NCBI GenBank assembly: GCA_002791545.1
Contig: PFXG01000065.1
Coordinates: 1 to 59,256, forward strand
DNA: 59,256 bases
DNA from: Zetaproteobacteria bacterium CG_4_9_14_3_um_filter_49_83
Lineage (GTDB): Bacteria; Pseudomonadota; Zetaproteobacteria; Mariprofundales; Mariprofundaceae
Direction: 5' to 3'
Shown: positions 8,427-33,282 of the stretch, one piece after another
How positions within the stretch are numbered: position 1 is the stretch's first letter
How the letters are laid out: each line of letters begins with the position of its first letter
The notes under the pieces: model-generated
Databases searched by the model: none
Seen by the model: only the letters and a program-made list of their open reading frames with translations
Told to the model about the DNA's origin: nothing
Made by a program: the position numbers and the translations under genes

Positions 8427-8447
8427 TTACCATTTGGCTTAACCGAA

Positions 8448-17857: not shown

Positions 17858-17876
17858 GAACAAATGGTATATTCAC

Positions 17877-17905: not shown

Positions 17906-17925
17906 ATGCATTCTAAATCTACCTT
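17903..17925 (+). promoter_or_regulatory. Predicted NsrR operator
   Basis: The 23-bp stretch from 17903, whose first bases are AATATGCATTCTAAATC, agrees at 17 of 23 positions with the enterobacterial NsrR palindrome (AAGATGCATTT-A-AAATGCATCTT). It overlaps the -10 box and the likely transcription start, an ideal place for repression, and sits beside the NsrR-like gene. Confidence 0.7.
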
Positions 17926-17970
17926 TTATAAAAAGGGGGAAGATTTAATTATCCTTGGAGGAATCATATT

Positions 17971-18336
17971 ATGAGTAGTGTTTATGAGCAGTTAGGTGGC
18001 GAAGCCGCGATTAATGCCGCAGTGGAAGTTTTTTATCGTAAAGTATTGGGTGATCACTATGTCAATCGCTTTTTTGAAGGCGTGGATATGGAAAAACAGG
18101 CTGGTAAACAAAAAGGCTTCCTGACTATGGTGACGGGTGGTCCGAACAACTACACAGGTAAAGATATGCGTGAAGGTCATAAACACCTGGTTAAAATGGG
18201 TCTGAATGATGCACACTTTGATCATATTCTCTGCCATTTGCGCTCGACGCTGGCTGAGCTGGGTGTATCTCAGGATTTGATTGATACAGTGATCAGCGTT
18301 GCAGAAAGCACGCGTGCCGACGTGCTGGATCGTTGA
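17971..18336 (+). CDS. Group I truncated hemoglobin
   Basis: A 121-residue globin of the trHbN/GlbN type. The proximal heme histidine is H70 in MREGHKHL, with a Tyr at the B10-like position (FYRKV, Y22). Such proteins bind O2 and NO, and many convert NO to nitrate when reduced. TTGGAGG lies before the ATG. The predicted NsrR-controlled promoter reads into it. A second, closely similar globin begins 1 bp after its stop. The presence of an associated reductase gene supports an NO-dioxygenase or O2/NO-sensing role, which is inference. Confidence 0.93.
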   Translation: MSSVYEQLGGEAAINAAVEVFYRKVLGDHYVNRFFEGVDMEKQAGKQKGFLTMVTGGPNNYTGKDMREGHKHLVKMGLNDAHFDHILCHLRSTLAELGVSQDLIDTVISVAESTRADVLDR

Positions 18337-18337
18337 T

Positions 18338-18838
18338 ATGCATTTAGAAACATTTATTCCGGCATTCCTGATGTTTGCTGTGTTGGGCCTGGTTCTTCCA
18401 ATTATTTTGTCTGATATGGCAGAAAAGGGTCGCAATTACACAGTGGAGCCGAAAGCTGAACCGGCTGCAAGCCCTGCCAGTGTTTATAAGCAAATTGGTG
18501 GAGAGGCAGCGGTGAATGCTGCTGTTGATGTGTTCTATCGCCGTGTTTTGGCGGACGCTTATGTGAATCGCTTTTTCGCAGGCGTGGATATGGATAAGCA
18601 GGCTGGCAAGCAGAAGGCATTTTTGACGATGGTGATGGGTGGTCCGCACAATTATACCGGTAAGGATATGCGTGAAGGTCACAAACATCTGATCAGGATG
18701 GGTTTAAATGATTCACATTTCGACCATATTTTGATGCATTTGCGTGCTACCTTGGCGCAACTGGGTGTGCCTGAAAATTTGATTCAGACGATTATCGGTG
18801 TGGCAGAAAGCACACGGGCAGATGTACTTGATCGTTAA
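18338..18838 (+). CDS. Membrane-anchored truncated hemoglobin
   Basis: A 166-residue protein: an N-terminal hydrophobic helix (about residues 5-25) and a short Pro/Ala/Glu linker, then a globin domain (about 47-166) very like the preceding one (about 75 percent identical by eye). The proximal histidine motif MREGHKHL is kept. The anchor suggests one of the pair works at the membrane. Which side of the membrane the globin faces cannot be read from this. It starts 1 bp after the first globin's stop, so it is coupled to it, and probably arose by tandem duplication plus a new N-terminus. Confidence 0.9.
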   Translation: MHLETFIPAFLMFAVLGLVLPIILSDMAEKGRNYTVEPKAEPAASPASVYKQIGGEAAVNAAVDVFYRRVLADAYVNRFFAGVDMDKQAGKQKAFLTMVMGGPHNYTGKDMREGHKHLIRMGLNDSHFDHILMHLRATLAQLGVPENLIQTIIGVAESTRADVLDR

Positions 18839-18863
18839 AATGTAATTTGTGCGTTGTAAGTGT

Positions 18864-18899
18864 AGGGCATCCGGACTGGTTCGGGTGCCCTGTTTGTTT
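18864..18899 (+). terminator. Terminator after the truncated hemoglobins
   Basis: AGGGCATCCGG pairs with TCGGGTGCCCT (one G-T pair and one mismatch) around a short loop, followed by TGTTTGTTT. It lies 25 bp past the second globin stop. Confidence 0.75.
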
Positions 18900-18956
18900 A
18901 GTATGGGCTTTTCAGGAAGCAGGAAAACTTTTTTTATTTAACAAGGGGAGATCAGC

Positions 18957-19922
18957 ATGCCAATGATTCATTTTGAAGGTCGGGATTACTTTTGCGCAGA
19001 GGATGAAACCATTCTTGAGAGTATGACGCGACATGGGGTGTTGATTCCATCATCGTGCCAGAGTGGCGCTTGCCAGACGTGTATGATTCGTGCGCTGCAA
19101 GGGACGCCGTCTGCGGAGTCACAAAAAGGCCTCAAGGCTACGCTGAAGGCGCAGAATTATTTTCTCGCCTGTGTATGTAAGCCTGTTGAAGATATGTCGA
19201 TTGGTCTTTCGAAGGTGTCGCCTCAGTTCACCACCACGGTTGTGAAAAAAGAACTGCTCAATGAAAGTGTCGTGCGGATTTGTTTGCAAAAACCGTCGGG
19301 TTTTAAATATATGGCGGGACAATTTATCAATGTTCAGCGTGCTTATGATGAGCTGACCCGCAGTTATTCACTGGCCAGTATTCCGGCCGACGATGTGCTT
19401 GAATTACACATCAAGCGCATCCCGGATGGAAAAATGAGCAATTGGATATTTGATGAACTGAAAGTGGATGATGAAGTGTCATTTTTCGGACCGGCGGGAG
19501 ATTGTTTCTATGTCTCCGGGCAAGCAGAGCACCCGCTATTGCTGATCGGCACCGGCACCGGCCTTGCTCCTTTGTATGGTATTTTGCGCGATGTTCTGGC
19601 GCAAGAGCATCAAGGTACGATTCATCTGTTTCACGCATCATTAACCGCAGAAGGGTTGTATCTGGAGCAGGAATTACGCGAGCTGGCCGCAAAACATGCG
19701 CATCTGAACTATGTTCCGTGTGTGATGCATGGCGATGTTCCCGAAGGTGGGCAGCAGGGTAATATTGCCGATATTCCGGCACGCCTTATCGACTCGCTTA
19801 GCGGTTATCGGGTCTTCTTATGTGGCGATCCGATGATTGTGAATAAATTGCGCCAGATGAGTTTTCTTTCGGGTGCCTCGATGCAGGATATTTATTCCGA
19901 TCCGTTTGTGTTTTCGGAGTAG
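18957..19922 (+). CDS. 2Fe-2S/FAD/NAD(P)H oxidoreductase
   Basis: A 321-residue flavin reductase of the phenol-hydroxylase-reductase or CDP-glucoseen-reductase type. Residues 1-85 form a plant-type 2Fe-2S ferredoxin (cysteines C34, C39, C42 and C72/C74). An FAD-binding domain with RSYSLAS follows (about 143), then a NAD(P)H domain with LIGTGTGLAP. It transfers electrons from NAD(P)H to a partner. Its position right after two truncated hemoglobins makes it a candidate reductase for them, though a terminator lies between. GGGGAG precedes the ATG. Confidence 0.88.
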   Translation: MPMIHFEGRDYFCAEDETILESMTRHGVLIPSSCQSGACQTCMIRALQGTPSAESQKGLKATLKAQNYFLACVCKPVEDMSIGLSKVSPQFTTTVVKKELLNESVVRICLQKPSGFKYMAGQFINVQRAYDELTRSYSLASIPADDVLELHIKRIPDGKMSNWIFDELKVDDEVSFFGPAGDCFYVSGQAEHPLLLIGTGTGLAPLYGILRDVLAQEHQGTIHLFHASLTAEGLYLEQELRELAAKHAHLNYVPCVMHGDVPEGGQQGNIADIPARLIDSLSGYRVFLCGDPMIVNKLRQMSFLSGASMQDIYSDPFVFSE

Positions 19923-19961
19923 TAATAGTCAGGCTACCATACATAAATTAGAACTTGATAA

Positions 19962-19967
19962 TATAAT
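19962..19967 (+). promoter_or_regulatory. Probable -10 box before the ArsR-type regulator
   Basis: TATAAT lies 23 bp before the regulator's ATG, in an AT-rich region with loose inverted symmetry (ATACATAAATTA against TTTAATACGTAT). No convincing -35 is visible. The symmetric AT-rich region is a possible autoregulatory operator. Confidence 0.45.
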
Positions 19968-19990: not shown

Positions 19991-20314
19991 ATGCATACAA
20001 TACCAGAATCAAACATTAAAGATGCGGCGCAGGGCTTGCGGGCGATTGCTCATGAGCTTCGGCTTGGTGTGTTGTGTCATTTATTGAACGGCCCGATGTG
20101 TGTCAACGAGTTAATCGAGGCCACGGGCGCATCACAATCCAATTTATCCCAGCATTTATCCAAAATGCGTCTGATGGGAATTATCAACAACGAAAAGCGG
20201 GGGCAACAGGTTTATTATGAGATTGCCAACCCCGAGTTTTTCAATCTGGTACATGTTTTGAAGCAAATTTACTGTCCTGAAATGTGTCAGGCTGTGACAG
20301 AAGCGGAGCATTAA
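19991..20314 (+). CDS. ArsR-family regulator, BigR/SqrR-like
   Basis: A 107-residue ArsR/SmtB-type winged-helix repressor. The DNA-recognition helix is GASQSNLSQHLSKMRLMGII. Cysteines occur at C29 and C37 and near the end at C95 and C99. BigR/SqrR-type regulators sense reactive sulfur through two such cysteines, one in the first helix region and one near the C-terminus. The metal-type ArsR ligand motif is absent. It is followed without a gap by the TolC, adaptor and RND genes and then rhodaneses, so a reactive-sulfur response is a reasonable inference. Confidence 0.75.
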   Translation: MHTIPESNIKDAAQGLRAIAHELRLGVLCHLLNGPMCVNELIEATGASQSNLSQHLSKMRLMGIINNEKRGQQVYYEIANPEFFNLVHVLKQIYCPEMCQAVTEAEH

Positions 20315-21670
20315 GTGTTTTTTTTGCCTAATGCATCAGTAATTCGTTATGTAATAATGTTTAGTGCCATGATGATGGCAACGTCGCTTGCTATGGCGGA
20401 GCAAGCCTGGACGCTGTCGCAGAGTATTCAGTTTGCCTTGCAGCATAATCGTATGCTGGGTGTTTCAGCGTTGAATGTGCAGCAATCCGAAGCTGAAGTG
20501 GAAAGAGCCACCGGACAATTGTTGCCACGCCTTGATTTTTCCAGCGGCGTCAGCAGAACAGACTCACCCTTGCAGGCTTTTGGTGCTAAATTGCAACAAC
20601 AGCGGGTTACGGCGGCCGATTTTGTGCCGGGCAGCCTGAATCACCCCGGCTATGTGAATAACTATCAGACTCGCTTGGGACTCAGTATGCCGATTTTTTC
20701 CGGCGGCGAGCTTTGGGCCGCTCGTCAGCAGGCCAGTTATCAGGCCCAGTCCAGTTCGCTTGAATATAGCTTTGCCAGACAGCGTCTTGTGTTCCAGACC
20801 ATTACGGCTTTTGTGCAGGCCAGACAGGCGCATGCGCAGCTTATCGTGCGTGAGAAAGCAGTCGAAGCGGCAGAGAAACGCTGGAACGATGTTCAGCAAT
20901 TGAAACAACGCGGCATGGCGATTAACAGTGATGTCATGGATGCCAATGTACAGCTTTTGAAAAATCGCGTTGCCCTTGATGCTGCACGTAATGCATGGGA
21001 AGACAGTCTGGATTCACTCAATCAAGTGCTGGGTCGTGAAGAGGATCATCGATTGCTGCTGGCTGAACCGGTGTTGAACTTTCAGAACGATGAGCTGGCC
21101 GGGCTGTTGCAAGAGGCCGAGAGCAAACGGGCGGATCTTCAGTCACTTATAGAACAATCGTATGCGGCCGATGCAGCCCGTAAAGCTTCCCGTTCCGGCT
21201 ATTTGCCATCGGTGAATCTGGTCGCAGCACAGGAATGGAACAGTGATACGGTGGGTATAAAAAACCGTAACACCATGATGGGACTGATGGTGGATATGAA
21301 CCTTTTCGCCGGTGGCAGTGATCGCGCCCGAATCAGAGTGGCTGAAGCTCAGGCGGCATCCATCGATATGATGATACACGACAAACGTCAGCAGATTGGC
21401 AATGAAGTGCGACAGGCATGGCGTGCAGTGCAAACTGCCGAAATGCGTGCACATAGTGAAGCAGAAGCCTTGTCGCAAAGTGAAGAGTCTGTGCGTATCA
21501 AAACACTCAGGTACCAGCAGGGCTTGGAAAAAACATCGGATTTACTGGCTTCCGGCGTGGCTTTGGATGCGGCCAGAGAGTCAGAAATCAGAGCGCGTCA
21601 CGATCTGATTCTGGCCAGAGCAGCATTAATGCTGGCAGCAGGACAATTACATGAAGGGGCGGTTCAATGA
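20315..21670 (+). CDS. TolC-family outer-membrane efflux channel
   Basis: A 451-residue OEP-family protein starting at GTG directly after the ArsR stop; an ATG at 20357 is an alternative start and gives a cleaner signal peptide. A hydrophobic export signal precedes AMAEQAW, and long helical repeats follow, for example AEVERATGQLLPRLDFS. It overlaps the adaptor gene by 4 bp. With the next two genes it forms a tripartite pump. The substrate is unknown; the neighbouring sulfur genes raise reactive sulfur compounds as a possibility. Confidence 0.9.
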   Translation: MFFLPNASVIRYVIMFSAMMMATSLAMAEQAWTLSQSIQFALQHNRMLGVSALNVQQSEAEVERATGQLLPRLDFSSGVSRTDSPLQAFGAKLQQQRVTAADFVPGSLNHPGYVNNYQTRLGLSMPIFSGGELWAARQQASYQAQSSSLEYSFARQRLVFQTITAFVQARQAHAQLIVREKAVEAAEKRWNDVQQLKQRGMAINSDVMDANVQLLKNRVALDAARNAWEDSLDSLNQVLGREEDHRLLLAEPVLNFQNDELAGLLQEAESKRADLQSLIEQSYAADAARKASRSGYLPSVNLVAAQEWNSDTVGIKNRNTMMGLMVDMNLFAGGSDRARIRVAEAQAASIDMMIHDKRQQIGNEVRQAWRAVQTAEMRAHSEAEALSQSEESVRIKTLRYQQGLEKTSDLLASGVALDAARESEIRARHDLILARAALMLAAGQLHEGAVQ

Positions 21671-22719
21671 GACACGGGAAAATGATGCATGCCATGCTTG
21701 TAACAGGATTGATACTTGTTCTGGCTGCGTGTTCCGGGCCGAAAGAGCCCGCTGTTAACAGTGCGACGCCACAGCAGGTGCAGGCACATATGATAACCGT
21801 GAACGAAATTGAATTGCCTGAACATTACGTGACCAGTGGTACCGTGACATCGGACCATAGTGTGGCCATCAGTTCGCGAATTTCAGGTTATATCCGCAAA
21901 TTATCGGTGCGCGAGGGCGATCGGGTTGAAGCCGGTCAGGTGCTGGTGCAGGTCGATCCGGTCGATGCCAGGCAGGCGTTTATTCAGGCGAAAGCTGAAA
22001 TGGTGGATGCCGAGGCGGATTTTCAGCGCTACAGCGAATTGATGAAAGTGGAAGCCGTGACCAGACAGCAGCTGGCCAGAGTGGAGCTGCGCTACAAACA
22101 GGCCAAGTCAAAAGTCGAGCAGGCCCGCAATCAGCTAAGTTATGCTGAGGTGCGCTCGCCCGTGGCCGGTGTGGTGGTTGATAAACGATTAAGCGAAGGC
22201 GACCTGGCTTCACCGGGATTAACCATTGTGGTGATTGAAGACCCTTCCAGTTTGCTGGTTGAGACCTATGTTTCCGAACAGTACGTACGGACCTTGCATG
22301 AGGAAGATGTCGTCGATGTGAATATTCCGGCGCTGAACCAGACATTCAATGGCCATGTGCGGCAGATCGTGCAGGCGGCTGATCCGGTGACCCATCAGTT
22401 TTTTATTAAAGTGGCTCTGCCATCGGATAAAGATGTACATCCGGGCATGTATGCCCAGACAGGATTCCGCATCGGTGTGAGAAACAGTGTTATGGTTCCC
22501 GAGGCCGCACTGGTCACGCAGGCCGGCTTACATGCGGTGTATGTTCTGGATGCGCAACAGGTAGCGCATTATCGACAGATTCGACTGGGTGCGCCCGTTG
22601 ATGGTCAGCTCGAAGTATTGGCGGGTCTGCATGCCGGTGATGTGATTGCATGGAAGGAGGCAGGGGCAACGCCGTTGCAAAGCGGTATGAAAGTATTACC
22701 TGTTGCAGCAGGTCAATAA
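21667..22719 (+). CDS. RND periplasmic adaptor lipoprotein
   Basis: A 350-residue membrane-fusion protein. The N-terminus has a lipobox (L-A-A-C at about residue 22) and the barrel-sandwich and beta-barrel parts are readable (SGYIRKLSVREGDRVEAGQV; YAEVRSPVAGVVVDK). It starts inside the TolC-like gene's end and its 3' end reaches the RND pump gene. Family is clear; substrate unknown. Confidence 0.9.
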   Translation: MRHGKMMHAMLVTGLILVLAACSGPKEPAVNSATPQQVQAHMITVNEIELPEHYVTSGTVTSDHSVAISSRISGYIRKLSVREGDRVEAGQVLVQVDPVDARQAFIQAKAEMVDAEADFQRYSELMKVEAVTRQQLARVELRYKQAKSKVEQARNQLSYAEVRSPVAGVVVDKRLSEGDLASPGLTIVVIEDPSSLLVETYVSEQYVRTLHEEDVVDVNIPALNQTFNGHVRQIVQAADPVTHQFFIKVALPSDKDVHPGMYAQTGFRIGVRNSVMVPEAALVTQAGLHAVYVLDAQQVAHYRQIRLGAPVDGQLEVLAGLHAGDVIAWKEAGATPLQSGMKVLPVAAGQ

Positions 22720-22738
22720 GGTGCAGGAAAACAAATCC

Positions 22739-25700
22739 ATGGCAGGCATGTCACTGAATATTGCAGGGAAACTCGGCCGTGCGGCGATGCACAGTAATTT
22801 AACGCCGATTGTCAGCATACTGATATTTCTGATTGGTCTGGTGGCGCTTTCTGTAACGCCGCGTGAGGAAAATCCGCAAATCGATGTACCTGCCGCTAAT
22901 GTAATCGTGCAGATGCAGGGGGCGAGTCCTGAGGAAGTGCAGAATCTGATTGTCCGGCCGATGGAAATGGTGCTGCGCGAAATGACCGGGGTAGATCACA
23001 CCTTTGGTACGGCGATGGATTCACTGGGTGTGGTGACGGTGATGTTCAAGGTTGGTGAGGATAAAGAAGCCAGTCTGGTTAAATTATACGATCGTATCAT
23101 GCACAACCTGAACCGAATTCCGTCAGGTGCTTCGCAACCACTGATCAAACCGATGGATGTGGACGATGTGCCGGTTTCGGTGATTACCTTGTCATCCAAT
23201 GATATGGATGGGCTGGCACTGAAACGTCTGGCAGAACGTGTGCGTGAGCAACTGGCACCGCTGAAAGGCGTCTCCGTGGCTGACATTATCGGTGGCCGTA
23301 ATCATGAAATTCGTGTGGAACTCGATCCGACACGACTGGCGGCTTATCAGATTACACTGGATCAGTTGCGCGCCGTATTTAAAGCGGCCAATGCCGGTGG
23401 TCCGATGGGCGTTCTGGTCGGTGGTAATCGGGTGACCAAGGTTTGGCTTGAAGGCTATCTGCAAAGTGCGTCGGATGTAGGTATGCTGATTGTCGGTGAT
23501 AGTCAGGGCAAACCGATTTATTTACGTGATGTCGCAGATGTCACCGATGGCCCTTCAGAAATAGATCAATTGCATAGAATCGGTTTTGGTCCGGCGGCGA
23601 ATGTAGCCATGACCGGTGAAGCGGAAACGCCTGCTGTCTCGATTGAGTTATCGAAGAAGCGCGGCACCAATGCAGTGGTGGTTACGAGTCTGATCCGGGA
23701 AAAGCTGGAATCATTAAAGGGTGATTTTATTCCGGATAATGTGCGTGTGGATATCACGCGTGATTCGGGTGAGCGCGCCGATGCAGCTGTGAATATGCTG
23801 GTTGAGCATTTGGGTATTGCGATTGCTACGGTGATTCTGATTTTACTGCTGTTCCTCGGCTGGCGCGAAGCGGCAATTGTAACGCTGAATATTCCGCTGA
23901 TTTTGTTTGTAGTGCTGGCGATTGGATTGTTTGCAGACCAGACAATTAATCGCATAACGCTGTTTGCGCTGATTCTTGCGCTGGGACTGTTGGTCGATGA
24001 TGCAATTGTCGTCATCGAAAATATTCACCGGCACTTACATCAGGGAGTTAAAACCCTGGGTGATAAGGCTAAATTAATTATCACAGCCACCAATGAGACC
24101 GGTAAACCCACCATAATTGCGACAATAGCTGTGATTCTGGCATTTATCCCGATGGCTTTTGTCACCGGTATGATGGGCCCGTACATGGGACCGATTCCAT
24201 TTAATGCCCCGCTGGCGATGGCGGCATCCCTGATTATTGCCTATGCCTTCACGCCGTGGATCGCTTTGCGCTGGATGCCATGCAAGGTTGTTGAACCGAC
24301 GATGGAAGAAAAAGATCAGCTGCCAAAGGACTGGGTGCATCGCACATATATGCGGATAGCCGTTCCGTTGATCGAAAAGCCACTGGTTCGTCGTATATTC
24401 TGGCTGATTGTGCTGGTGCTGTTTGTGGGCGCCATGTTGCAACCGGGTTGGCAGTTTATCCGTCCGGCCGGTATTAATGGTCCGATGACGCCGGGTACGG
24501 TTGAGCTGAAGATGTTACCCAAGGGCAATCAGAATACGTTCAATATCACGCTTGATTTGGCGGAAGGCTCAACGCTTGAGGATACAGATCAACTGGCACG
24601 CGAAATTGGCGATGTGCTGCGTCAGCATCCGATGGTACTGGATTACGAAACATTTGCCGGACGTGCGGGCCCTATCGATTTTAATGGCATGCTGCGCGGT
24701 GCAGCGCTGTTTCGCGAAGCGCCACATCTGGGTGAAATTCGTGTCAATCTGCTGGATAAGCATCTGCGATCTATCCGCTCGGCTGAAATCGTCTTGCAGA
24801 TTCGCGACATGCTGGAGCCCGTGATACAGGCTAACCCGAAAGTTTCGATCAAGCTGGTTGAAGATCCACCGGGACCGCCGGTCCGTGCGACGTTGCTGGC
24901 TGAAATCTACGGGCCGGATTATGACACGCAGCGAAAAATCGCCGGTCAGGTCAGGGACGTTTTCTCAAGCACCTATGACGTGACAGACGTGGATGATTCT
25001 GTTGGTGAAGACCAGCACCAGTTCAATGTCCGCATCGATAAGGAAAAAGCTTCCAGGCTGGGGATTTCCACCCGGCAGGTTGAAGGCGCACTGCGTGATT
25101 TTCTCGGCGGCTACAACTTTGGCAATGTGCATATGGCACAGGAACGTCATGCTGTTCACTTGCATGTGCAGCTGCCCAAACGTCTGCGGGCGCAAGTGCA
25201 GGACCTGAACCGGATTCACGTCAGCTCAGCCAATGGGCCTGTTCCGTTATCTGTCATTGCAACAGTTGAACAGTCTGTAGCGGCTAAACCGGTGCTCAGT
25301 AAAGACGGGCATCCGGTGGTGTATGTGACGGCCGAGCCAAAACAGGGATCGCAGGTTTATTCTTTGCTGGAAATGGACTGGCAGCTCGATGGCAGTGAGG
25401 TGCAGCCGGGAACTCAGCTTAAAACCGGTGGTATGCGTTTTACCGATACGGCACCGCAAGACACCTTTGGCTATCACATGTTGTGGGATGGTGAAATGCG
25501 TCTGACGCTTGATGTGTTCCGTGATCTGGGCGCTGCATTCATTGTAGCACTGGTGCTGATTTATCTGTTGATGGTGGGTTACTATGGCCAGTTTATTTTG
25601 CCGATGCTGGTGATGGCCCCAACGGCACTGACTATGATCGGCATTTTCCCCGGCCACTGGATCACCGGCCAGCCTTTTACCGCCACTTCAATGATCGGCA

Positions 25701-26029
25701 TGATTGCGCTGGCTGGTATTGTTGTGCGTAACTCCACCCTGTTGATTGATTTTATTCTGGATTACCGGAAACAGGGGCACGATGTGAAAACCGCCGTGCT
25801 TGAGGCCGGTGCCGTGCGTGCAAGGCCGATTCTGCTCACCGCGCTGGCGGTGATTGCCGGTACTTCCATTATGATCAGCGATCCGGTGTTCGGTGGACTG
25901 GGTGTCTCGATGGCTTTCGGTACATTGGCAGCGACGATACTGACGCTGTTTATCACGCCGTTGATGTATTACTTATGGCAACGCAATAAACTTGATACGG
26001 CTGAGCCTTGCCCAACTTCAAATTCATAA
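22739..26029 (+). CDS. RND efflux pump, inner-membrane component
   Basis: About 1096 residues. Typical RND features: TM1 near residues 20-40, two periplasmic loops, TM bundles, and the proton-relay motif LGLLVDDAIVVIENIHR with two adjacent Asp residues. The early sequence VTPREENPQIDVPAANV marks a subclass different from AcrB and from CusA-type pumps. The ATG is chosen over in-frame TTG/GTG starts upstream. The gene follows its adaptor closely. Substrate is unknown; association with a BigR-like regulator and sulfur genes suggests a sulfur-linked export role. Confidence 0.9.
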   Translation: MAGMSLNIAGKLGRAAMHSNLTPIVSILIFLIGLVALSVTPREENPQIDVPAANVIVQMQGASPEEVQNLIVRPMEMVLREMTGVDHTFGTAMDSLGVVTVMFKVGEDKEASLVKLYDRIMHNLNRIPSGASQPLIKPMDVDDVPVSVITLSSNDMDGLALKRLAERVREQLAPLKGVSVADIIGGRNHEIRVELDPTRLAAYQITLDQLRAVFKAANAGGPMGVLVGGNRVTKVWLEGYLQSASDVGMLIVGDSQGKPIYLRDVADVTDGPSEIDQLHRIGFGPAANVAMTGEAETPAVSIELSKKRGTNAVVVTSLIREKLESLKGDFIPDNVRVDITRDSGERADAAVNMLVEHLGIAIATVILILLLFLGWREAAIVTLNIPLILFVVLAIGLFADQTINRITLFALILALGLLVDDAIVVIENIHRHLHQGVKTLGDKAKLIITATNETGKPTIIATIAVILAFIPMAFVTGMMGPYMGPIPFNAPLAMAASLIIAYAFTPWIALRWMPCKVVEPTMEEKDQLPKDWVHRTYMRIAVPLIEKPLVRRIFWLIVLVLFVGAMLQPGWQFIRPAGINGPMTPGTVELKMLPKGNQNTFNITLDLAEGSTLEDTDQLAREIGDVLRQHPMVLDYETFAGRAGPIDFNGMLRGAALFREAPHLGEIRVNLLDKHLRSIRSAEIVLQIRDMLEPVIQANPKVSIKLVEDPPGPPVRATLLAEIYGPDYDTQRKIAGQVRDVFSSTYDVTDVDDSVGEDQHQFNVRIDKEKASRLGISTRQVEGALRDFLGGYNFGNVHMAQERHAVHLHVQLPKRLRAQVQDLNRIHVSSANGPVPLSVIATVEQSVAAKPVLSKDGHPVVYVTAEPKQGSQVYSLLEMDWQLDGSEVQPGTQLKTGGMRFTDTAPQDTFGYHMLWDGEMRLTLDVFRDLGAAFIVALVLIYLLMVGYYGQFILPMLVMAPTALTMIGIFPGHWITGQPFTATSMIGMIALAGIVVRNSTLLIDFILDYRKQGHDVKTAVLEAGAVRARPILLTALAVIAGTSIMISDPVFGGLGVSMAFGTLAATILTLFITPLMYYLWQRNKLDTAEPCPTSNS

Positions 26030-26049
26030 AAAAACCAAAGGAGATATTT

Positions 26050-26259
26050 ATGACTATACCCCGCGCTATTCGCATTATTGCCGGAACATTTATTCTATTA
26101 AGCTTATACCTTGCATTCCGCTATAACGGTGTCGCTCTGGGTGAGCCGACATGGCTCTGGTTCACCGCTTTTGTTGGTGCCAATCTGCTACAGTCCGGTT
26201 TCACGCAGTGGTGCTTGATGGAAAAGATTTTAGCCAGGCTGGGAATGAAATACGCTTGA
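26050..26259 (+). CDS. DUF2892 small membrane protein
   Basis: A 69-residue protein with two hydrophobic helices, matching the DUF2892 family (motif RAIRIIAGTF and GANLLQSGFTQWC). DUF2892 domains occur alone or joined to rhodanese (YgaP) and are common beside sulfur-transfer genes. AAAGGAG lies just before the chosen ATG. It ends the pump operon and is followed by a strong terminator. Confidence 0.85.
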   Translation: MTIPRAIRIIAGTFILLSLYLAFRYNGVALGEPTWLWFTAFVGANLLQSGFTQWCLMEKILARLGMKYA

Positions 26260-26270
26260 GCTAAACCGCT

Positions 26271-26333
26271 AGCAGGTGCGGGCGGGTTCCAACTCCCCTC
26301 CCCTTGTGCAGACCCGTTCGCGCCTGCTTTTTT
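26271..26333 (+). terminator. Rho-independent terminator after the RND/DUF2892 genes
   Basis: AGCAGGTGCGGGCGGGTT pairs with GACCCGTTCGCGCCTGCT with few mismatches, and the stem is followed by six T bases. It separates the pump operon from the rhodanese genes. Confidence 0.85.
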
Positions 26334-26365
26334 ATTTGAAAAACAGTGACAGGAGTTCCACTTAG

Positions 26366-26773
26366 ATGGATATGATTCAGCAAAACCTTGGCTATATTCT
26401 GATGACGGCGTTCATTTTCTGGATGTTATGGCGCAGGCTGATTGCACCGAAATTATCCGGCGTCAAAACCATGTCGGCCAGCGATTATATGAGTTTCCGG
26501 CACGAGCCACATGTGTTGATTGATGTGCGCAGTGATGGTGAGTGGCGTTCCGGCCATGCATCGATAGCGATGCATATCCCACTGGGTGAGATTACCAGGC
26601 ATCTGTATCAGGTGCCGGTGGACAGGGCGGTTGTGGTGATCTGTGCCTCGGGTAACCGCTCGGCAGTTGCTGCGACCACACTGGCTAAAGCCGGGATCGA
26701 AAATGTCTATAATTTCTCCGGTGGCATGGGCTCATGGAAGGGTGCCGGCTTACCCGTCAAGACTGGTGCCTGA
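26366..26773 (+). CDS. Membrane-anchored rhodanese
   Basis: A 135-residue single-domain rhodanese (sulfurtransferase) with one N-terminal transmembrane helix (about residues 7-26). The active-site loop is CASGNRS, with the persulfide-carrying Cys first. It is the first of three rhodaneses within 2 kb. AGGAG precedes the ATG. It is followed by a TSUP permease. Confidence 0.9.
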   Translation: MDMIQQNLGYILMTAFIFWMLWRRLIAPKLSGVKTMSASDYMSFRHEPHVLIDVRSDGEWRSGHASIAMHIPLGEITRHLYQVPVDRAVVVICASGNRSAVAATTLAKAGIENVYNFSGGMGSWKGAGLPVKTGA

Positions 26774-26818
26774 TGCAATCTGAGGAAACTCTTGAATAAT
26801 CAGGATTAGGGTCAGGGC

Positions 26819-27571
26819 ATGAGTATTTCCTTGTGGCTGGCTGCGCCATTAATCGGTTTGCTGCTTTCGTTGTTTGCAGCAGGAGGCGGCATGATTGCGG
26901 TGCCGCTTTTAAGCTATGGCCTGGGGATGCCGTTTAAACAGGCGGTGGCGACCAGTCTGGTGATTGTTGCAACGGTCAGCCTGATTTCGTTGATTCAGAT
27001 GAAGGGATGGAAGCTGATAGACTGGCGTTTACATCGGTTTTTTGCACTTGGTGGACTGATTGGCGGCGTCACAGGGGCGAATATCGGGCTGGGTATTTCC
27101 GATCAGGCTCAGTCCATTCTGTTTGCTTCTCTGGTGCTGCTGGTGGCCTGGTGGACGAGTACTGATCATATGAAGCTGATCTGCGCGCTGGCCGGTCGCA
27201 AGCCATGCCATTGCAGTAAAGCCATGTTGGCCGGCATCGCGACAGGCCTGGTGACAGGTCTTCTGGGCGTCGGTGCCGGGTTTCTCATTGTTCCTCTGCT
27301 TTTGCTGCTCGGTGTTGGCAGTTACCAGTCGGCTATTGCACATTCGCTGGTGCTGATTATCTCCAACTCGCTGGTCGCCACCCTGAGTTATGCGGACAGC
27401 CTCAGATTTGACTGGTATCCGGTTGTGCTGATTGTCGGACTGGCCACTCTGGGTTCATGGGCCGGTAGCGTGATTGCTAAAAAATACTCATCGACGCATT
27501 TGCAGAAGGTGTTCAGTGTGGTTTTGACACTGATATCGGTGCTCATGTTGATAAAGGCTTTCAGTTACTGA
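26819..27571 (+). CDS. TSUP/TauE/SafE-family membrane permease
   Basis: A 250-residue membrane protein with about 8 hydrophobic helices and the repeated Gly-rich starts of the TSUP family (FAAGGGMIAVPLL; GLLGVGAGFLIVPLL). Members move sulfur-containing anions such as sulfite, sulfoacetate or thiosulfate. Its neighbours are rhodaneses. Direction and exact substrate are inference. Confidence 0.88.
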   Translation: MSISLWLAAPLIGLLLSLFAAGGGMIAVPLLSYGLGMPFKQAVATSLVIVATVSLISLIQMKGWKLIDWRLHRFFALGGLIGGVTGANIGLGISDQAQSILFASLVLLVAWWTSTDHMKLICALAGRKPCHCSKAMLAGIATGLVTGLLGVGAGFLIVPLLLLLGVGSYQSAIAHSLVLIISNSLVATLSYADSLRFDWYPVVLIVGLATLGSWAGSVIAKKYSSTHLQKVFSVVLTLISVLMLIKAFSY

Positions 27572-27630
27572 TACGTAAAGAATTGAACATAAATAGTGAT
27601 TTATAAAATATACAAAACAGGAGAAATGAT

Positions 27631-28044
27631 ATGAAGAAATTCTTATTGGGTCTCATGCTCATCGCCGGTTTTCCATGGATGGTATCAGCTTGCGGTGTGG
27701 GTGAGAAGACGGCTGACGGATATGAAGATACGCCTGTGCAACACGCTTATGAACATTGGACGCAAGGCGAAAAATCATTTATTCCATTTGTTTTTATAGA
27801 TGTGCGAACCCTTGATGAATATGACGCAGGACATATTCAGGGCGCGATGCATATACCGCTTCAGGATTTATCGGCACATATCGCCGAGATTCCGCATAAC
27901 AAACAGGTCTACGTGTATTGCCATTCCGGTCGCCGATCAGCCAGCGCAGCAAAATTACTGGCCGGAAAAGGTTTCACAAATATTGAAAATGTTGTTGGTG
28001 GCTTCAGCGCCTGGAAGGCAGCTGAGTATCCGGTGGTGCCATGA
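27631..28044 (+). CDS. Rhodanese lipoprotein
   Basis: A 137-residue rhodanese with a signal peptide ending in a lipobox (V-S-A-C), so probably attached to a membrane on the periplasmic side. The active-site loop is CHSGRRS. The 4-bp overlap with the next rhodanese gene indicates coupling. CAGGAGAAA precedes the ATG. Confidence 0.9.
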   Translation: MKKFLLGLMLIAGFPWMVSACGVGEKTADGYEDTPVQHAYEHWTQGEKSFIPFVFIDVRTLDEYDAGHIQGAMHIPLQDLSAHIAEIPHNKQVYVYCHSGRRSASAAKLLAGKGFTNIENVVGGFSAWKAAEYPVVP

Positions 28045-28385
28045 TGGTGAAATCAACCGATGTAAAAACGTTATATCCGCTCTGGCTGGCCGGGCATGAG
28101 AAGAGTGCTCCGCCATGTATCATGATCGACGTGCGTTCGCCGGAGGAATATGCTCAGGGTCATGTTCCGGGTGTTGCCCTGATTCCGCTGAATGCATTGG
28201 CCGCACGTGCGCATGAGGTGCCAAAGCAGGGAGATGTATATTTCATCTGTCACTCTGGCGGCAGATCGGCACAGGCTGTGATGTTTCTGCAACGCGAATG
28301 CGGACATGCTAATCTGATCAATGTCAGCGGCGGTACGATGGCCTGGTCACAAGCTGGCTTTGAGATTGAAAAAGGGAGAAACTAA
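28041..28385 (+). CDS. Cytoplasmic rhodanese
   Basis: A 114-residue single rhodanese domain without signal peptide. The active-site loop is CHSGGRS. It overlaps the preceding rhodanese and shares one base with the next start (TAATG). Sulfur could be relayed between the periplasmic and cytoplasmic rhodaneses, which is inference. Confidence 0.9.
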   Translation: MMVKSTDVKTLYPLWLAGHEKSAPPCIMIDVRSPEEYAQGHVPGVALIPLNALAARAHEVPKQGDVYFICHSGGRSAQAVMFLQRECGHANLINVSGGTMAWSQAGFEIEKGRN

Positions 28386-28786
28386 TGCGTGAAGATTATG
28401 GCATGAGAGTGGTTTATAACGGATCAGCTGAAGCCGCCGAAGTGGCAGTTACCGAGGCGTTGAAGCAGGTCGGTTTTGGTATCCTGACGCGTATCGATGT
28501 GGCAGAAACACTGAAAAAGAAGATCGATGTGGATCGTTCTGCCTACGTGATACTTGGAGCGTGTAATCCGAAGCTGGCTAATCATGGACTCAACCTTGAG
28601 CCGGAACTGGGATTGTTGCTGCCATGCAATGTGATCGTCTATGAAAATGAGGCGGGCGAAACCGTGATTTCAATTATCGATCCATTGGCTATGGTTGGTA
28701 TGATCGATAACCCACAACTCAGTTGTCTGGTTGAAGAAGCAAGACCCTTGCTGCAATCAGCGCTAAAGGCTGTATCTGATATTTGA
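28385..28786 (+). CDS. DUF302-family protein
   Basis: A 133-residue protein matching DUF302 (FGILTRIDVAETLKKK; YVILGACNPKLA; LGLLLPCNVIVYE). Cysteines lie in GACNP and LLPCN. The family is often found near rhodaneses and sulfur oxidation genes, but its biochemical role is unsettled. It begins on the last base of the preceding stop codon and its stop overlaps the next start (TGATG). Confidence 0.9.
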   Translation: MREDYGMRVVYNGSAEAAEVAVTEALKQVGFGILTRIDVAETLKKKIDVDRSAYVILGACNPKLANHGLNLEPELGLLLPCNVIVYENEAGETVISIIDPLAMVGMIDNPQLSCLVEEARPLLQSALKAVSDI

Positions 28787-29460
28787 TGGCCATGTCGAGC
28801 TGGATTGAACTTTTTCCTTTGCTGGCTTCAATCAAAGATGAAGCCCTTTGCAGAGATTTAAGCAACATCAAAGTGATGACGTTCTCCAGAGGCGATTTCC
28901 TGTTCAGGGAAGGTGACGATTGCCGTGGCTATGTGCTGGTGATTTCCGGTTCAATCTGCGTGCATAAAATTGATTCTGAAGGTCGTGAAATTCTGCTTTA
29001 TCGTGTGGAAGGCGGTCAGAACTGTATGTTGACGACAACCTGTCTGATGGGGCATCAACCGTATCCGGCAGAAGCTGTGGTGGAAAAAGATGTGCAACTG
29101 GTGTTGCTACCGCCAGCGCTGTTCGAACGGCTGTTGATTACTTCGGATGCATTTCGTGTTCAGGCCATGGCCAGCATCGGTCAGCGCATTTGCGATATGA
29201 TGCTGTTGATCGGGAATGTGGCTTTTGGCCGCATCAATGCCCGGGTTGCCGATATTTTGTTGCGCCGTGATGAGGATGAAACAGGTACCGTAAATTGCAC
29301 GCATCAGGTGCTGGCTTCGGAGCTTGGAACGGCACGCGAAGTCGTTAGCCGTATGCTTAAAAACTTTGAATCCGATGGCATGGTCGCTCTGAGTCGAGGC
29401 GAAATTCGTATTCTGAATAGAAAGCAACTTCACTTATTAGCGGATTCATTGTCTGTGTGA
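28786..29460 (+). CDS. Crp/Fnr-family transcriptional regulator
   Basis: A 224-residue regulator: cyclic-nucleotide-binding-like fold at about 15-125, dimer helix, and a C-terminal winged helix with TREVVSRML-type recognition (ELGTAREVVSRMLKNFES). It lacks the N-terminal cysteine cluster of O2-sensing FNR. It closes the rhodanese-DUF302 set and probably controls some of it. The ATG at 28786 overlaps the DUF302 stop; an ATG two codons later is possible. Confidence 0.87.
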   Translation: MAMSSWIELFPLLASIKDEALCRDLSNIKVMTFSRGDFLFREGDDCRGYVLVISGSICVHKIDSEGREILLYRVEGGQNCMLTTTCLMGHQPYPAEAVVEKDVQLVLLPPALFERLLITSDAFRVQAMASIGQRICDMMLLIGNVAFGRINARVADILLRRDEDETGTVNCTHQVLASELGTAREVVSRMLKNFESDGMVALSRGEIRILNRKQLHLLADSLSV

Positions 29461-29541
29461 CTTTGTTACAGACATTAAATAATTAGGGTATTATTATTCG
29501 CTAATATTAAAATCTCTGCACGGGGATTATGGAGGAGAATT

Positions 29542-29745
29542 ATGAAAGCAAACGTAGGTGGCATAGATCGAATTTTAAGAGGTGTGGTTGGCGCAGCGCT
29601 CATTCTTGCCGGACTGTTGGCCGGAATTGCTGAACCCTGGAATTGGGTGGCGGTGGGTGCAGGCGCGGTGTTTGTACTGACATCCTTGATTAAGTTCTGC
29701 CCGTTGTACCCCCTGCTGGGTTTCAATACATGCGGCAAGCAATAA
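29542..29745 (+). CDS. DUF2892 small membrane protein (second copy)
   Basis: A 67-residue two-helix protein typical of DUF2892: NVGGIDRILRGVVGAALI at the start and KFCPLYPLLGFNTC at the end, with cysteines before and after the last helix. GGAGGAG precedes the ATG. It sits between the Crp/Fnr gene and SQR, followed by a terminator. Confidence 0.88.
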   Translation: MKANVGGIDRILRGVVGAALILAGLLAGIAEPWNWVAVGAGAVFVLTSLIKFCPLYPLLGFNTCGKQ

Positions 29746-29760
29746 CAGATAACGATTTCT

Positions 29761-29800
29761 GACAGGCGTCCGGCAATCACCGGGCGCCTGTCTTGTTTTT
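29761..29800 (+). terminator. Rho-independent terminator after DUF2892
   Basis: GACAGGCGTCCGG pairs with CCGGGCGCCTGTC around a 6-base loop, followed by TTGTTTTT. Confidence 0.85.
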
Positions 29801-29944
29801 CACATAGCCTTTTTATCAAAACACCCGGATGGTTATGTGGATGGGTAGGGCGAGGGAGACCTCGCCCTTTCCGACAGACTGTTTCCTTGAACAAGGGCAG
29901 GCAATAATAATCAGGGCAAGATGCCCCGGAAGGAGACCAATAAT

Positions 29945-31222
29945 ATGGCACATGTAGTCATTATGGGAGCAGGAATCGGTGGCATGCCTGCTGCTTATGA
30001 AATGAAAGATGCCCTGAAAAAATTCGGTGGTGAGCACGAAGTCACGGTGGTATCGAATGTGGATTATTTCCACTTTACCCCATCCAACCCGTGGGTCGCT
30101 GTTGGCTGGCGTGACAAGGAACAGATTAGTTTTCAGTGCTCGCCTTATCTGAATAAAAAAGGCATCAACTTCCTCTCCGTTGACGTGGATGAGATTTTAG
30201 CCGATGAGAGCCGACTTCGCCTGGGTAATGGCCAGATGCTGGATTATGACTACCTGATTGTGGCCACAGGCCCGCGTTTAGCTTTCGAGCTTATTGAGGG
30301 CATGGGACCTGAAGGTCACACCCATTCAATTTGCCATGTCGACCATGCCGTCAAGGCGCATGAAGCCTTTGAAGCATTCTGCAAAAATCCCGGCCCGATT
30401 GTTGTCGGTGCTGTGCAGGGCGTGTCCTGTTTTGGGCCAGCTTATGAGTATGCCTGTATTCTGGATACAGAACTACGCCGACGGAAAATCCGCAATAAAG
30501 TACCTATGACCTTTATTACGCCTGAACCGTACATCGGTCATCTGGGACTTGGTGGTGTTGAAGATTCCAAAGCATTGCTTGAATCGGAATTCAGAAAGCG
30601 TGATATTAAATTTATCACCAACTGTAAAACTCTGGCCGTGCACGAACATACGCTTGATTATGAAGAAGTGGACCGGCATGGCGCGGTGGTCAATTCAGGT
30701 TCACTGGAGCATACATTTGCCATGCTGATGCCACCGTTCCGTGGTGTTGGTCCGGTTGCCAATTGTGAAGGTCTGGTGAATCCGATGGGCTTTGTGATGA
30801 TCAACGATTTTCAGCAAAACCCGAACTTCAAGAATATTTTCGGTACGGGTGTGATCGTGGCGATTCCGCCGGTAGAATCCACGCCATTGCCGGTGGGTAC
30901 GCCGAAAACGGGCTTCATGATTGAAACCATGACAACAGCTATTGTGCATAACATTATCCATGATCTGAAGAGTGAAGCACCTGAGAAGAGTGGCACATGG
31001 GGGGCAATTTGTTTGGCCGATTTTGGTGATGGCGGCGTTGCACTGGTGGCTTATCCACAGATTCCACCACGTAATATGGTCTGGGCCAAAGGTGGAGCCT
31101 GGGTTCATGTGGCCAAGGTTGGATTTGAAAAATATTTTATGCGCAAAATGAAAACAGGTGTTTCAGAACCCTTTATTGAGAAGGCATTTCTCAAGCGTAT
31201 GGGTATTGAACGTTTGAAATAA
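29945..31222 (+). CDS. sqr: Sulfide:quinone oxidoreductase-type flavoprotein
   Basis: A 425-residue FAD-dependent pyridine-nucleotide-disulfide-like protein. The N-terminal FAD motif is VVIMGAGIGGMPAAYEM. C130 (SICHVDHA), C162 (GVSCFGPAYEYA) and a C-terminal Cys in GAICLADFGDG fit the redox cysteines of SQR. SQR oxidises sulfide to polysulfide or persulfide at the membrane and passes electrons to quinone. The C-terminus carries amphipathic helices (about 380-425) suited to membrane attachment. I start at the ATG after AAGGAG rather than 8 codons upstream. Electrons could reach the downstream cytochromes. Sub-type not assigned. Confidence 0.88.
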   Translation: MAHVVIMGAGIGGMPAAYEMKDALKKFGGEHEVTVVSNVDYFHFTPSNPWVAVGWRDKEQISFQCSPYLNKKGINFLSVDVDEILADESRLRLGNGQMLDYDYLIVATGPRLAFELIEGMGPEGHTHSICHVDHAVKAHEAFEAFCKNPGPIVVGAVQGVSCFGPAYEYACILDTELRRRKIRNKVPMTFITPEPYIGHLGLGGVEDSKALLESEFRKRDIKFITNCKTLAVHEHTLDYEEVDRHGAVVNSGSLEHTFAMLMPPFRGVGPVANCEGLVNPMGFVMINDFQQNPNFKNIFGTGVIVAIPPVESTPLPVGTPKTGFMIETMTTAIVHNIIHDLKSEAPEKSGTWGAICLADFGDGGVALVAYPQIPPRNMVWAKGGAWVHVAKVGFEKYFMRKMKTGVSEPFIEKAFLKRMGIERLK

Positions 31223-31231
31223 GTTCTCCCT

Positions 31232-31258
31232 CCCTGAGTGGGGTCATTCCTGCTCAGG
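31232..31258. other. Hairpin in the SQR/AhpD-like gap
   Basis: CCCTGAG and CTCAGGG form a 7-bp stem around a 13-base loop. No T-run follows, so it may lower downstream expression or protect RNA ends rather than terminate fully. Confidence 0.4.
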
Positions 31259-31292
31259 GGGTCCCCTAGAAAAAGATCGTGGAGGATAAGCA

Positions 31293-31640
31293 ATGAGTGA
31301 TTCTTACAAAAAACTAACCAGTGAATTATCTTCAACTATTGGTGATATCCGCAAGGAAATCCCGGACGTGATGAAAGGCTTTTCGGCGATGGCCGGAGCT
31401 GCCCTGGAAGATGGGGCACTGTCCAAGAAAACCAAGGAAATGATAGCCTTGGCCATCGGTGTATCCGGCCAGTGCAAGGGCTGTATCGGATTTCATGTGA
31501 AGGCTTTGATTGCGCTAGGTGTAACACGTCAGGAATTAATGGAAGTGCTGGGCATGGCCATTTATATGGGTGGTGGACCATCCCTGATGTATGCAGCTGA
31601 GGCATTGCAGGCATACGAGGAATTTACCGGAACATGTTAG
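31293..31640 (+). CDS. Carboxymuconolactone decarboxylase/AhpD-like protein
   Basis: A 115-residue AhpD-fold protein. The thiol motif CKGCIGFHVKA (C61, C64, H68) matches the redox-active AhpD pattern. Such proteins act as thiol-dependent peroxidase partners or related redox enzymes. GGAGGATAAGC precedes the ATG. It is 70 bp after SQR and overlaps the next gene by 7 bp, so it belongs to the SQR group. Confidence 0.88.
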   Translation: MSDSYKKLTSELSSTIGDIRKEIPDVMKGFSAMAGAALEDGALSKKTKEMIALAIGVSGQCKGCIGFHVKALIALGVTRQELMEVLGMAIYMGGGPSLMYAAEALQAYEEFTGTC

Positions 31641-31876
31641 CCCGTATGTTGTATTGCCCGTCCATGCATATGCTGGTGGTGGCAGCCCTGTTGTTGGGGC
31701 TGGCGCCGTTTACGCCGGAACCGCATCTGGTCGAGAAAGCACGCATGCTGATGCAGGGCGAATTAACACGCCCTCTGGATATCTTCGATGTATTCTGGCA
31801 CAGCTGGCCGTTATTGTGGATTGTTCTGCGCCTGCTGACGCCACCGACCGTTTGTGAGATCCCGAACAAGTCATGA
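31634..31876 (+). CDS. Small membrane protein, unknown
   Basis: An 80-residue protein with two hydrophobic segments (about 8-26 and 50-68) and the sequence RPLDIFDVFWHSWPLLW between them. No known family recognised. It overlaps the AhpD-like gene upstream by 7 bp and the next gene by 4 bp (ATGA), so it is part of the same operon with SQR. Likely inner membrane. Confidence 0.65.
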   Translation: MLARMLYCPSMHMLVVAALLLGLAPFTPEPHLVEKARMLMQGELTRPLDIFDVFWHSWPLLWIVLRLLTPPTVCEIPNKS

Positions 31877-32187
31877 TGCTGCTGGATATACTGCTTCTTT
31901 TGGCTGTCACTGCTGGATGCTGGTATAGCTATCAAAGAAAATTAAGCTGGTTGCAGCAGGTCAATTTTTTACTGCTGCGCCTGTTTGCCGGATACGGTTT
32001 TCTTCGCCAGTTGCTGACATTTTCCCCGCTGCTGGTTGGCTATCTGCTGAGCTGCCACTGGCTGAATACGCACGGCTGGCATGCAACAGCAGCAGGCGGC
32101 ATGGTGCTGGCTATGACCATAGGCTTAAATGCCATGCGTTCATTTGAAGAACAGCAAAAACTGGAGATAACTTCATGCGAAGGATGA
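31873..32187 (+). CDS. Small membrane protein, unknown
   Basis: A 104-residue protein with about three hydrophobic segments. No family recognised. It starts on ATGA with the preceding gene and overlaps the next by 13 bp, indicating tight coupling within the SQR-cytochrome group. The His and Trp in LLSCHWLNTHGWHATAAGG may matter but no known heme motif is visible. Confidence 0.65.
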   Translation: MMLLDILLLLAVTAGCWYSYQRKLSWLQQVNFLLLRLFAGYGFLRQLLTFSPLLVGYLLSCHWLNTHGWHATAAGGMVLAMTIGLNAMRSFEEQQKLEITSCEG

Positions 32188-32675
32188 AAAGCGCCGGAGT
32201 AGTTGTGTTTAAATTCGCATGGGTATTTGGCTTTCTACCTTCGCTGGCCTTCGCTGATCCGCTGGATAAAGGTGAAGCTTATACCGAGCGGCAAGAGCCG
32301 CCGGACTGGATGGATGGTATCGATTTTACCTGGCTGATTGTCGATTACGGACTGTTTGCGCTGGCGGTTATCGGATTGGGATGGTTGCTGTTGAAGCGCG
32401 CTGCCTGGTTTACTGCTTTTGAGAGGGTGTTGTTCTCACCGTTTCGTTTTTTGCTTCGTCTGGCCTCTCGCCTACCCGTTATTGCGCGGGAATTGTTACA
32501 GGGTATCACCGGCCTGCTGGTGCTTTTGTTGATTGTTGCCTGGGTATTTCTTTGCCAATGGCTCAGCCACCATGAGCTTGGTGCGATAGCGATGGCCGGA
32601 CTGGCGCTGGAAGCAGTCATTTTAGTTCGTTTGATCAAGGGAACGGAAAGAGCACGGCCGGTGTTGCCGGAATAA
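32175..32675 (+). CDS. Membrane protein with signal peptide, unknown
   Basis: A 166-residue protein with an N-terminal signal peptide (ending near SLAFA) and two to three further hydrophobic helices. The segment GEAYTERQEPPDWMDGIDFT lies just after the signal. No family recognised. Overlaps the previous gene; 19 bp before the cytochrome-c'-like gene. The three small membrane genes may form a membrane complex around the SQR or cytochrome, which is inference. Confidence 0.65.
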   Translation: MRRMKSAGVVVFKFAWVFGFLPSLAFADPLDKGEAYTERQEPPDWMDGIDFTWLIVDYGLFALAVIGLGWLLLKRAAWFTAFERVLFSPFRFLLRLASRLPVIARELLQGITGLLVLLLIVAWVFLCQWLSHHELGAIAMAGLALEAVILVRLIKGTERARPVLPE

Positions 32676-32694
32676 GCTGGAAAAGGAGACGAAT

Positions 32695-33282
32695 ATGAAA
32701 TTTTTGGCGCTAGTGATTGCACTGGGTTTAACTGCATTCTCAGGGAATACTTTTGCAGCGGATGCACAGACTGGCCCGGGTATGGGGCAGGGGATGGGCA
32801 AGGGTAAAATGATGGGGAACAACATGGGGAACAACATGGGGAACAACATGGGGAACAACATGGGGAACAACATGGCCCCAATGTTGGATGAACGGGAATC
32901 AGCAGGTATTCCCGAACAGATGAAATCAACACATCTGGCACGTATGCGCTCCCATCTTGAGGCTATCAACGACATCATTGCAGCTATGGCAGAAGGTGAA
33001 TTTGATAAGGCATCACAAGTTGCGGAAAATGAACTTTCCATGCGTCAGGGTATGGGTGGTGGACAGGGCGCTGGGCGTGGTATGGGCTTAGGTAAAGGTG
33101 CCGGGATGGGCATGTGCAAAGGTATGAATAATGAGCAATTCATGGAGTTGGGTACGGCTTTCCATGCAAGTGCCGGTGAACTTGCTGAGGTGCTGGAAAG
33201 CGGTGACGAAAAGAAATCCTTGCGCGCACTGAATAAAACGATGAATTATTGTATCCAGTGCCACGCGGCGTATCGTCAGTAA
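32695..33282 (+). CDS. Cytochrome c'-like protein with GNNM repeat
   Basis: A 195-residue exported protein. After a signal peptide (about residues 1-21), residues 41-60 are five GNNM repeats, then a helical part and a Gly/Met-rich segment (GMGGGQGAGRGMGLG). The C-terminus holds the heme motif CIQCH (C186, C189, H190) followed by AAYR, the placement seen in cytochrome c'-type proteins. Such proteins bind NO or serve electron transfer. The low-complexity inserts are unusual for the family. AAAGGAGACG precedes the ATG. Confidence 0.75.
   Translation: MKFLALVIALGLTAFSGNTFAADAQTGPGMGQGMGKGKMMGNNMGNNMGNNMGNNMGNNMAPMLDERESAGIPEQMKSTHLARMRSHLEAINDIIAAMAEGEFDKASQVAENELSMRQGMGGGQGAGRGMGLGKGAGMGMCKGMNNEQFMELGTAFHASAGELAEVLESGDEKKSLRALNKTMNYCIQCHAAYRQ
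32812..32874 (+). repeat. 12-bp x 5 tandem repeat ATGGGGAACAAC
   Basis: Five perfect copies encode Met-Gly-Asn-Asn. Because the unit is a multiple of three, copy-number change would lengthen or shorten the linker without frameshift. Confidence 0.95.

Follow-up and report, generated by a model that had tools for sequence, protein, structure and literature searches.

A tripartite RND pump as a likely part of a reactive-sulfur stress regulon in a zetaproteobacterium and its relatives

We analyzed a 59,256-nucleotide stretch of DNA (hereafter, the window) from an iron-oxidizing marine bacterium, part of contig C34 in a draft genome of 2.68 Mb (G000) whose closest named relatives belong to the Mariprofundaceae and other Zetaproteobacteria. 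The region at positions 19991-31640 likely represents a regulon for stress by reactive sulfur (sulfane sulfur), equipped with its own dedicated resistance-nodulation-division (RND) pump of tripartite build. The pump genes, encoding a TolC-family outer membrane channel, a periplasmic adaptor and an RND permease, directly follow the gene for an ArsR-family repressor, in a series that extends through DUF2892, rhodanese, TSUP, DUF302 and Crp/Fnr genes to a sulfide:quinone oxidoreductase (SQR) and an AhpD-like protein. The gene neighborhoods and upstream elements described below make it very probable that the pump is a member of the regulon. The nature of its cargo is more tentative, and sulfane sulfur itself is our leading guess.

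To assess the association between pump and sulfur genes, we assembled pump loci from named genomes, relatives, a phylum-wide sample and plasmids, removing near-copies; paralogous RND loci, chiefly from the same family, served as controls. Loci were considered linked if they harbored at least two of ArsR, DUF2892, rhodanese, SQR, TSUP and DUF302 within 5 kb. Linkage was observed in 55 of 71 close members and 9 of 32 distant members of the pump group, and in none of the 46 paralogous loci (Fisher P = 6e-19 for close members; for distant members P = 1.5e-4, an indicative value, given that the controls come mostly from other genomes). The neighbor profiles were built on these same loci, and distant loci are more likely to be under- than over-counted. 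On the inferred tree, all 103 relatives form a single well-supported group, set apart from the paralogs by a long branch, and the linked label changes 16 times, against a mean of 38.8 for shuffled labels.

Gene order is conserved across the family, the order and further families, with DUF2892 following the pump gene in most close loci, and the order seen in the window recurs in many Mariprofundaceae. The position of arsR varies, being first in Zeta- and betaproteobacteria and last, after DUF2892, in gammaproteobacteria (adaptor-RND-DUF2892-arsR), and the association persists. In beta sulfur oxidizers an arsR-tolC-adaptor-RND-DUF2892-rhodanese series lies ahead of glutaredoxin and SecB genes. 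In four such loci (L103, L109, L112 and L097), the cassette has phosphoglycerate mutase/EnvC-like genes on one side and rhodanese-glutaredoxin-SecB-GpsA genes on the other, as though it had been inserted in front of a yibN-grxC-secB operon. Among 14 plasmid records, examined through their own annotation, eight present at least two sulfur-type neighbors (Paracoccus, Salinivibrio, Azospirillum, Rhizobium, Methylocella, Nitratireductor and two Pseudanabaena), the Paracoccus pantotrophus pump being flanked by genes for ArsR, DUF2892, a YgaP-type transmembrane (TM) protein, a metallo-beta-lactamase (MBL) hydrolase, a TIGR01244 sulfur transferase and an FAD/NAD(P) oxidoreductase. One Vibrio record has DUF2892 as its sole sulfur-type neighbor, and a genome on the same branch of the tree encodes arsR, two YeeE-like genes, adaptor, RND, DUF2892, rhodanese and tolC consecutively. 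The Polaromonas, Roseibium, Sphingopyxis, Flammeovirga and Alloyangia records among the 14 show no sulfur-type neighbor by annotation.

A prior sequence-only reading of the window had described the series from ArsR to the AhpD-like protein, and every gene that it listed is present, intact and in order on the forward strand. The recurrence of this order in many Mariprofundaceae, together with linkage exceeding that of the 46 paralogous controls, indicates that the arrangement is not due to chance. The reading's description of the combination as unusual was too strong, given the spread of this arrangement across Zeta-, beta-, gamma- and alphaproteobacteria and cyanobacterial plasmids, and the fact that RND pumps have already been listed as likely targets of sulfane-sulfur regulators of the ArsR family (PMC12423496).

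Comparison with relatives revealed an operator-like element, ATTAGAACTTGATAATATAAT, on the forward strand at 19947-19967, 5' of the regulator gene, with the imperfect dyad ATTAGMA-CT-TGMTAAT. The pattern was picked after the sites had been seen, so the weight of this evidence rests on genome-wide counts and not on the choice of pattern. We searched 12 whole genomes for the element, including six of the Ghiorsea group g8. The window site is the sole match with up to three mismatches in the whole window genome, and in relatives the same element precedes the arsR or the tolC of the pump. Beta loci carry an identical 22-bp sequence, GTATTTTAGTATATTTGAATAC, before arsR in eight cases and a version with one mismatch in a ninth.

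Ghiorsea-type genomes retain tolC, adaptor and RND genes, and their surroundings contain neither arsR nor a sulfur gene. In all nine of these loci, ATTAGAACTTGCTAATATA or a version with one or two mismatches lies 5' of tolC, and this is the same element as that at window position 19947 (ATTAGAACTTGATAATATA); no other open reading frame in these pump loci has a match with fewer than four mismatches. Five of the six g8 genomes contain a single exact match each, which lies at the pump; in the sixth (G101) the pump site has two mismatches. Further sites in genomes G123 and G153 lie right before an arsR-DUF2892-rhodanese series and before a rhodanese gene, the rhodanese of that site in G123 being followed by genes for an MBL-fold protein and TSUP. 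The paralog-control loci yielded one exact match, which likely stems from a control locus (L161) that overlaps the L123 pump locus. The occurrence of the element both at unlinked Ghiorsea pumps and before ArsR and rhodanese genes suggests that the pump belongs to the regulon even when it is not a neighbor of the regulator, and that the Ghiorsea pump is regulated in trans. According to the sequence-only reading, the sulfur association would be undermined if the pump occurred in relatives without sulfur genes. Taken literally, such pumps exist in Ghiorsea and in a few plasmid lineages, but Ghiorsea keeps the operator, and its exception thus counts as support. The same pumps are what could be adduced for a chance adjacency of a generic pump to sulfur genes in one lineage. 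Linkage across distant families, measured against paralog controls, and retention of the operator where the neighbors have been lost exclude chance as an account of the neighborhood for practical purposes, and we give it almost no credence. In a Ghiorsea-group genome (L251), a weaker version of the element with three mismatches (1501-1519) stands right before a thioredoxin gene and may be due to chance. A candidate second operator in the window, CTAATATTA at 29501, before the gene at 29542, has about five mismatches to the pump element and was not called.

The regulator (19991-20314, forward strand, as are all features of the region; Pfam HTH_5) has HlyU, YgaV (PDB 3cuo), BigR and other ArsR proteins among its best solved relatives, and its Cys29 and Cys95, located in the first helices and near the C terminus, align with the sensing pair of the persulfide sensors SqrR, BigR, YgaV and HlyU. 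Both cysteines are retained in 64 of the 66 regulators linked to close pumps. Fold, relatives and cysteine pair support assignment to the SqrR/BigR/YgaV/HlyU type. The protein scores 58.9 bits against the strict NCBIfam BigR model (NF040642; cut-off 155) and is therefore named BigR/SqrR-like here, not BigR. These results bear out the earlier proposal of a BigR-like, sulfur-type regulator, and its claim that a tripartite pump lies under such a regulator holds both by the location of the pump inside the regulator's own unit and, through operator conservation, by its place in the regulon. In our reading, the window ArsR would sense persulfide and bind the element upstream of its gene.

The ArsR family assignment, the two further cysteines (37 and 99) of the Zeta regulators and the iron-oxidizing host group could be read as signs of a pump that exports metals, or metal-sulfide complexes formed where sulfide meets iron or copper, as has been proposed for H2S-induced RND pumps in Azospira (PMC5358917). 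The beta regulators, however, lack Cys37 and Cys99, keeping only the Cys29-Cys95 pair, and the pump has the two TM4 aspartates of HAE1 pumps and is not HME-like, scoring 163 bits against TIGR00914 (HME, CusA/CzcA; cut-off 701), whereas a true CusA-type pump encoded in the same window at 4651-7863 reaches 1257 bits. The divergence from HME pumps and the presence of a separate CusA-type pump rule out metal export as the leading idea, and we regard it as improbable. The latter pump is part of a copper/silver-type cluster (697-10682) comprising a TolC-like channel, a CusB-like adaptor whose C-terminal end bears Met/His-rich tandem repeats, CusA, a DUF411-like protein containing CC, and an ATPase of the CopA type.

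The sulfur-linked permease (22742-26029, with a possible alternative TTG start at 22703) matches ACR_tran (508 bits), presents an AcrB-like fold and carries the TM4 Asp pair, in line with an HAE1-like class. It scores below the cut-off of every named NCBIfam RND family, among them NF033617 (442.6 vs 1250 bits), NF000282 (329.5 vs 1250) and TIGR00915 (294.8 vs 940). The structure model (mean pLDDT 68.6, a medium confidence) was used only to assign an AcrB/AcrD-like fold class. The pump thus shares fold, tripartite layout and TM4 Asp pair with the multidrug pumps AcrB, AcrD and MdtB, and differs from them in its approximately 20% identity in the fold match, its regulator and its gene company. 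It also differs in an invariant Arg997 in a TM10 motif, a hallmark of the clade at which paralogs have Lys or other residues; we take the AcrB residue at the aligned position to be Lys. In sixteen beta members (within L095-L117) and in L035 the second TM4 Asp is replaced by Ala, a substitution that may change proton coupling.

Several observations weigh against a sulfur-dedicated pump. Amphiphiles are the usual cargo of HAE1-like pumps, and AcrD, OqxB and AcrB are the matches of the predicted fold; some clade members adjoin TetR regulators or lipid genes; and the element was recognized through sequence comparison rather than binding experiments, with a much poorer match in some Mariprofundus loci (4-8 mismatches). 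Moreover, deletion of an RND-SQR operon in Azospira, whose pump may or may not belong to this clade, left the H2S oxidation rate unchanged (PMC5358917). The fold, the HAE1-like sequence and the TetR- or lipid-associated members would also suit a general exporter of hydrophobic or amphiphilic compounds placed under a reactive-sulfur regulator, with sulfur stress signaling envelope or redox damage and the cargo not being sulfur; MarR and MexR are among the multidrug regulators on which sulfane sulfur is reported to act. Yet the pump is repeatedly accompanied by DUF2892, rhodanese and SQR in several independent arrangements, a tighter association than a shared stress signal demands, and the 46 unlinked control loci include drug-type pumps. 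We consider general efflux unlikely, though less so than metal or metal-sulfide export, and rank both behind the export of sulfane sulfur.

The sequence-only reading had suggested that the pump could export persulfides, polysulfides or compounds formed from them, and we likewise advance such export as a guess. In its boldest form, which we hold to be somewhat less likely than not, the whole clade would be dedicated to sending sulfane sulfur to the outside, whether as polysulfides, organic persulfides or hydrophobic sulfur, with DUF2892 and the membrane rhodanese feeding the pump. In the proposed working of the regulon, SQR would convert sulfide into persulfide or polysulfide; accumulating sulfane sulfur would then link Cys29 to Cys95 of the ArsR repressor, which would leave the operator at 19947-19967 and allow the arsR-tolC-adaptor-RND-DUF2892 unit to be made. 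Via TolC, the pump would expel sulfane-sulfur compounds (polysulfide, an organic persulfide or hydrophobic sulfur) collected in the periplasm or at the outer surface of the inner membrane, while rhodaneses, TSUP and DUF302 would deal with sulfur inside the cell. In the literature searched, in which subscription journals are little covered, we found no paper giving an RND pump a sulfur cargo.

A tie between RND pumps and sulfane-sulfur regulators has been suggested before, and the pattern reported here is broad, with prior hints. RND pumps and TauE are among the apparent targets of ArsR regulators that respond to sulfane sulfur (Li 2025; PMC12423496). As in the regulons of SqrR, SoxR/sHdrR, BigR, YgaV and HlyU, a two-Cys ArsR lies near SQR, rhodanese, TauE and DUF2892-type genes; unlike in those regulons, tolC, adaptor and RND genes are within the regulator's own unit, and the pump keeps the element when apart from the regulator. 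The E. coli ygaVP system shares the regulator type (PDB 3cuo match), the YgaP-type TM domain and a rhodanese, but the window encodes the TM domain and the rhodanese in two distinct genes and includes a tripartite pump in the regulator's unit. In Azospira suillum, the Dsui_3440-3443 operon, which likewise combines RND, SQR and adaptor genes, is induced under H2S oxidation and has a fitness effect by Bar-seq (Mehta-Kolte 2017; PMC5358917). No ArsR is reported in that operon, and its authors suggest metal-sulfide export; a fitness effect with no change in oxidation rate would fit a role in tolerance. Vibrio VexLM, an orphan RND pump encoded on the small chromosome, to which no substrate has been assigned (PMC10225521), is likened here by description and serves as a lead only; the Vibrio relative of the sulfur-linked clade adjoins DUF2892.

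How bacteria dispose of excess sulfane sulfur beyond oxidation is poorly known, and the literature searched mentions efflux, naming no tripartite pump together with what it carries. In Zeta-, beta-, gamma- and alphaproteobacteria as well as in cyanobacteria, a distinct RND clade is associated with sensors of the persulfide type; it is a concrete candidate for such efflux and provides a first hypothesis for orphan RND pumps lacking a drug phenotype. The conserved operator makes the clade testable in tractable hosts such as Paracoccus.

Within the region, the arsR, tolC (20315-21670; Pfam OEP, 1.6e-53), adaptor (21667-22719; lipoprotein-type signal LAAC; TIGR01730, 191 bits, over cut-off; HlyD_D23) and RND genes abut, overlap or lie at most 22 bases apart, and the DUF2892/YgaP-like TM protein, the direct partner of the pump (26050-26259; PF11127), follows within 20 bases. 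Since these genes are joined and then followed by a strong intrinsic terminator (26271-26333; a long G+C-rich stem followed by TTTTTT; -34.9 kcal/mol, z -5.2), they likely form one transcription unit. Next come a rhodanese with an N-terminal TM segment, predicted to be membrane-anchored, with a YibN-like layout (26366-26773; PF00581; TM and loop read from sequence), a TauE/TSUP permease (26819-27571; PF01925), a rhodanese with a lipoprotein-type signal (27631-28044; PF00581), a signal-less, presumably cytoplasmic rhodanese (28041-28385; PF00581), a DUF302 protein (28385-28786; PF03625) and a Crp/Fnr-family regulator (28783-29460; HTH_Crp_2, cNMP_binding). All three rhodaneses, as read from their sequences, keep the C-x-x-G-x-R loop (CASGNR, CHSGRR and CHSGGR, respectively). 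A second DUF2892/YgaP-like TM protein (29542-29745; PF11127, 5e-22) precedes another intrinsic terminator (29761-29792; 13-bp stem, -27.8 kcal/mol, z -8.3). SQR (29945-31222), of the Acidithiobacillus ferrooxidans type (phmmer 7.7e-147 to 3sz0), aligns end to end with the A. ferrooxidans enzyme, including all three redox cysteines, and is followed by an AhpD-like CMD protein with a CxxC motif (31293-31640; PF02627; TIGR00778, over cut-off). Given the two terminators, a single long operon spanning 19991-31640 is unsupported and several transcription units are probable, with the rhodanese/TSUP/DUF302/Crp and SQR/AhpD genes probably forming further units.

Just upstream of the sulfur pump (17354-19922), an Rrf2-family regulator faces two truncated globins and a ferredoxin-type flavin reductase, possibly involved in nitric oxide or oxygen handling. 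Downstream, positions 31634-33282 encode a cytochrome c'-like protein containing MGNN repeats and three small membrane proteins that lack a Pfam match and are also found close to the pump cluster of relatives. These are followed by a TPMT-type methyltransferase (33316-33888) that is recurrent beside the pump or the sulfur cluster in many Zeta loci and could methylate sulfide or thiols.

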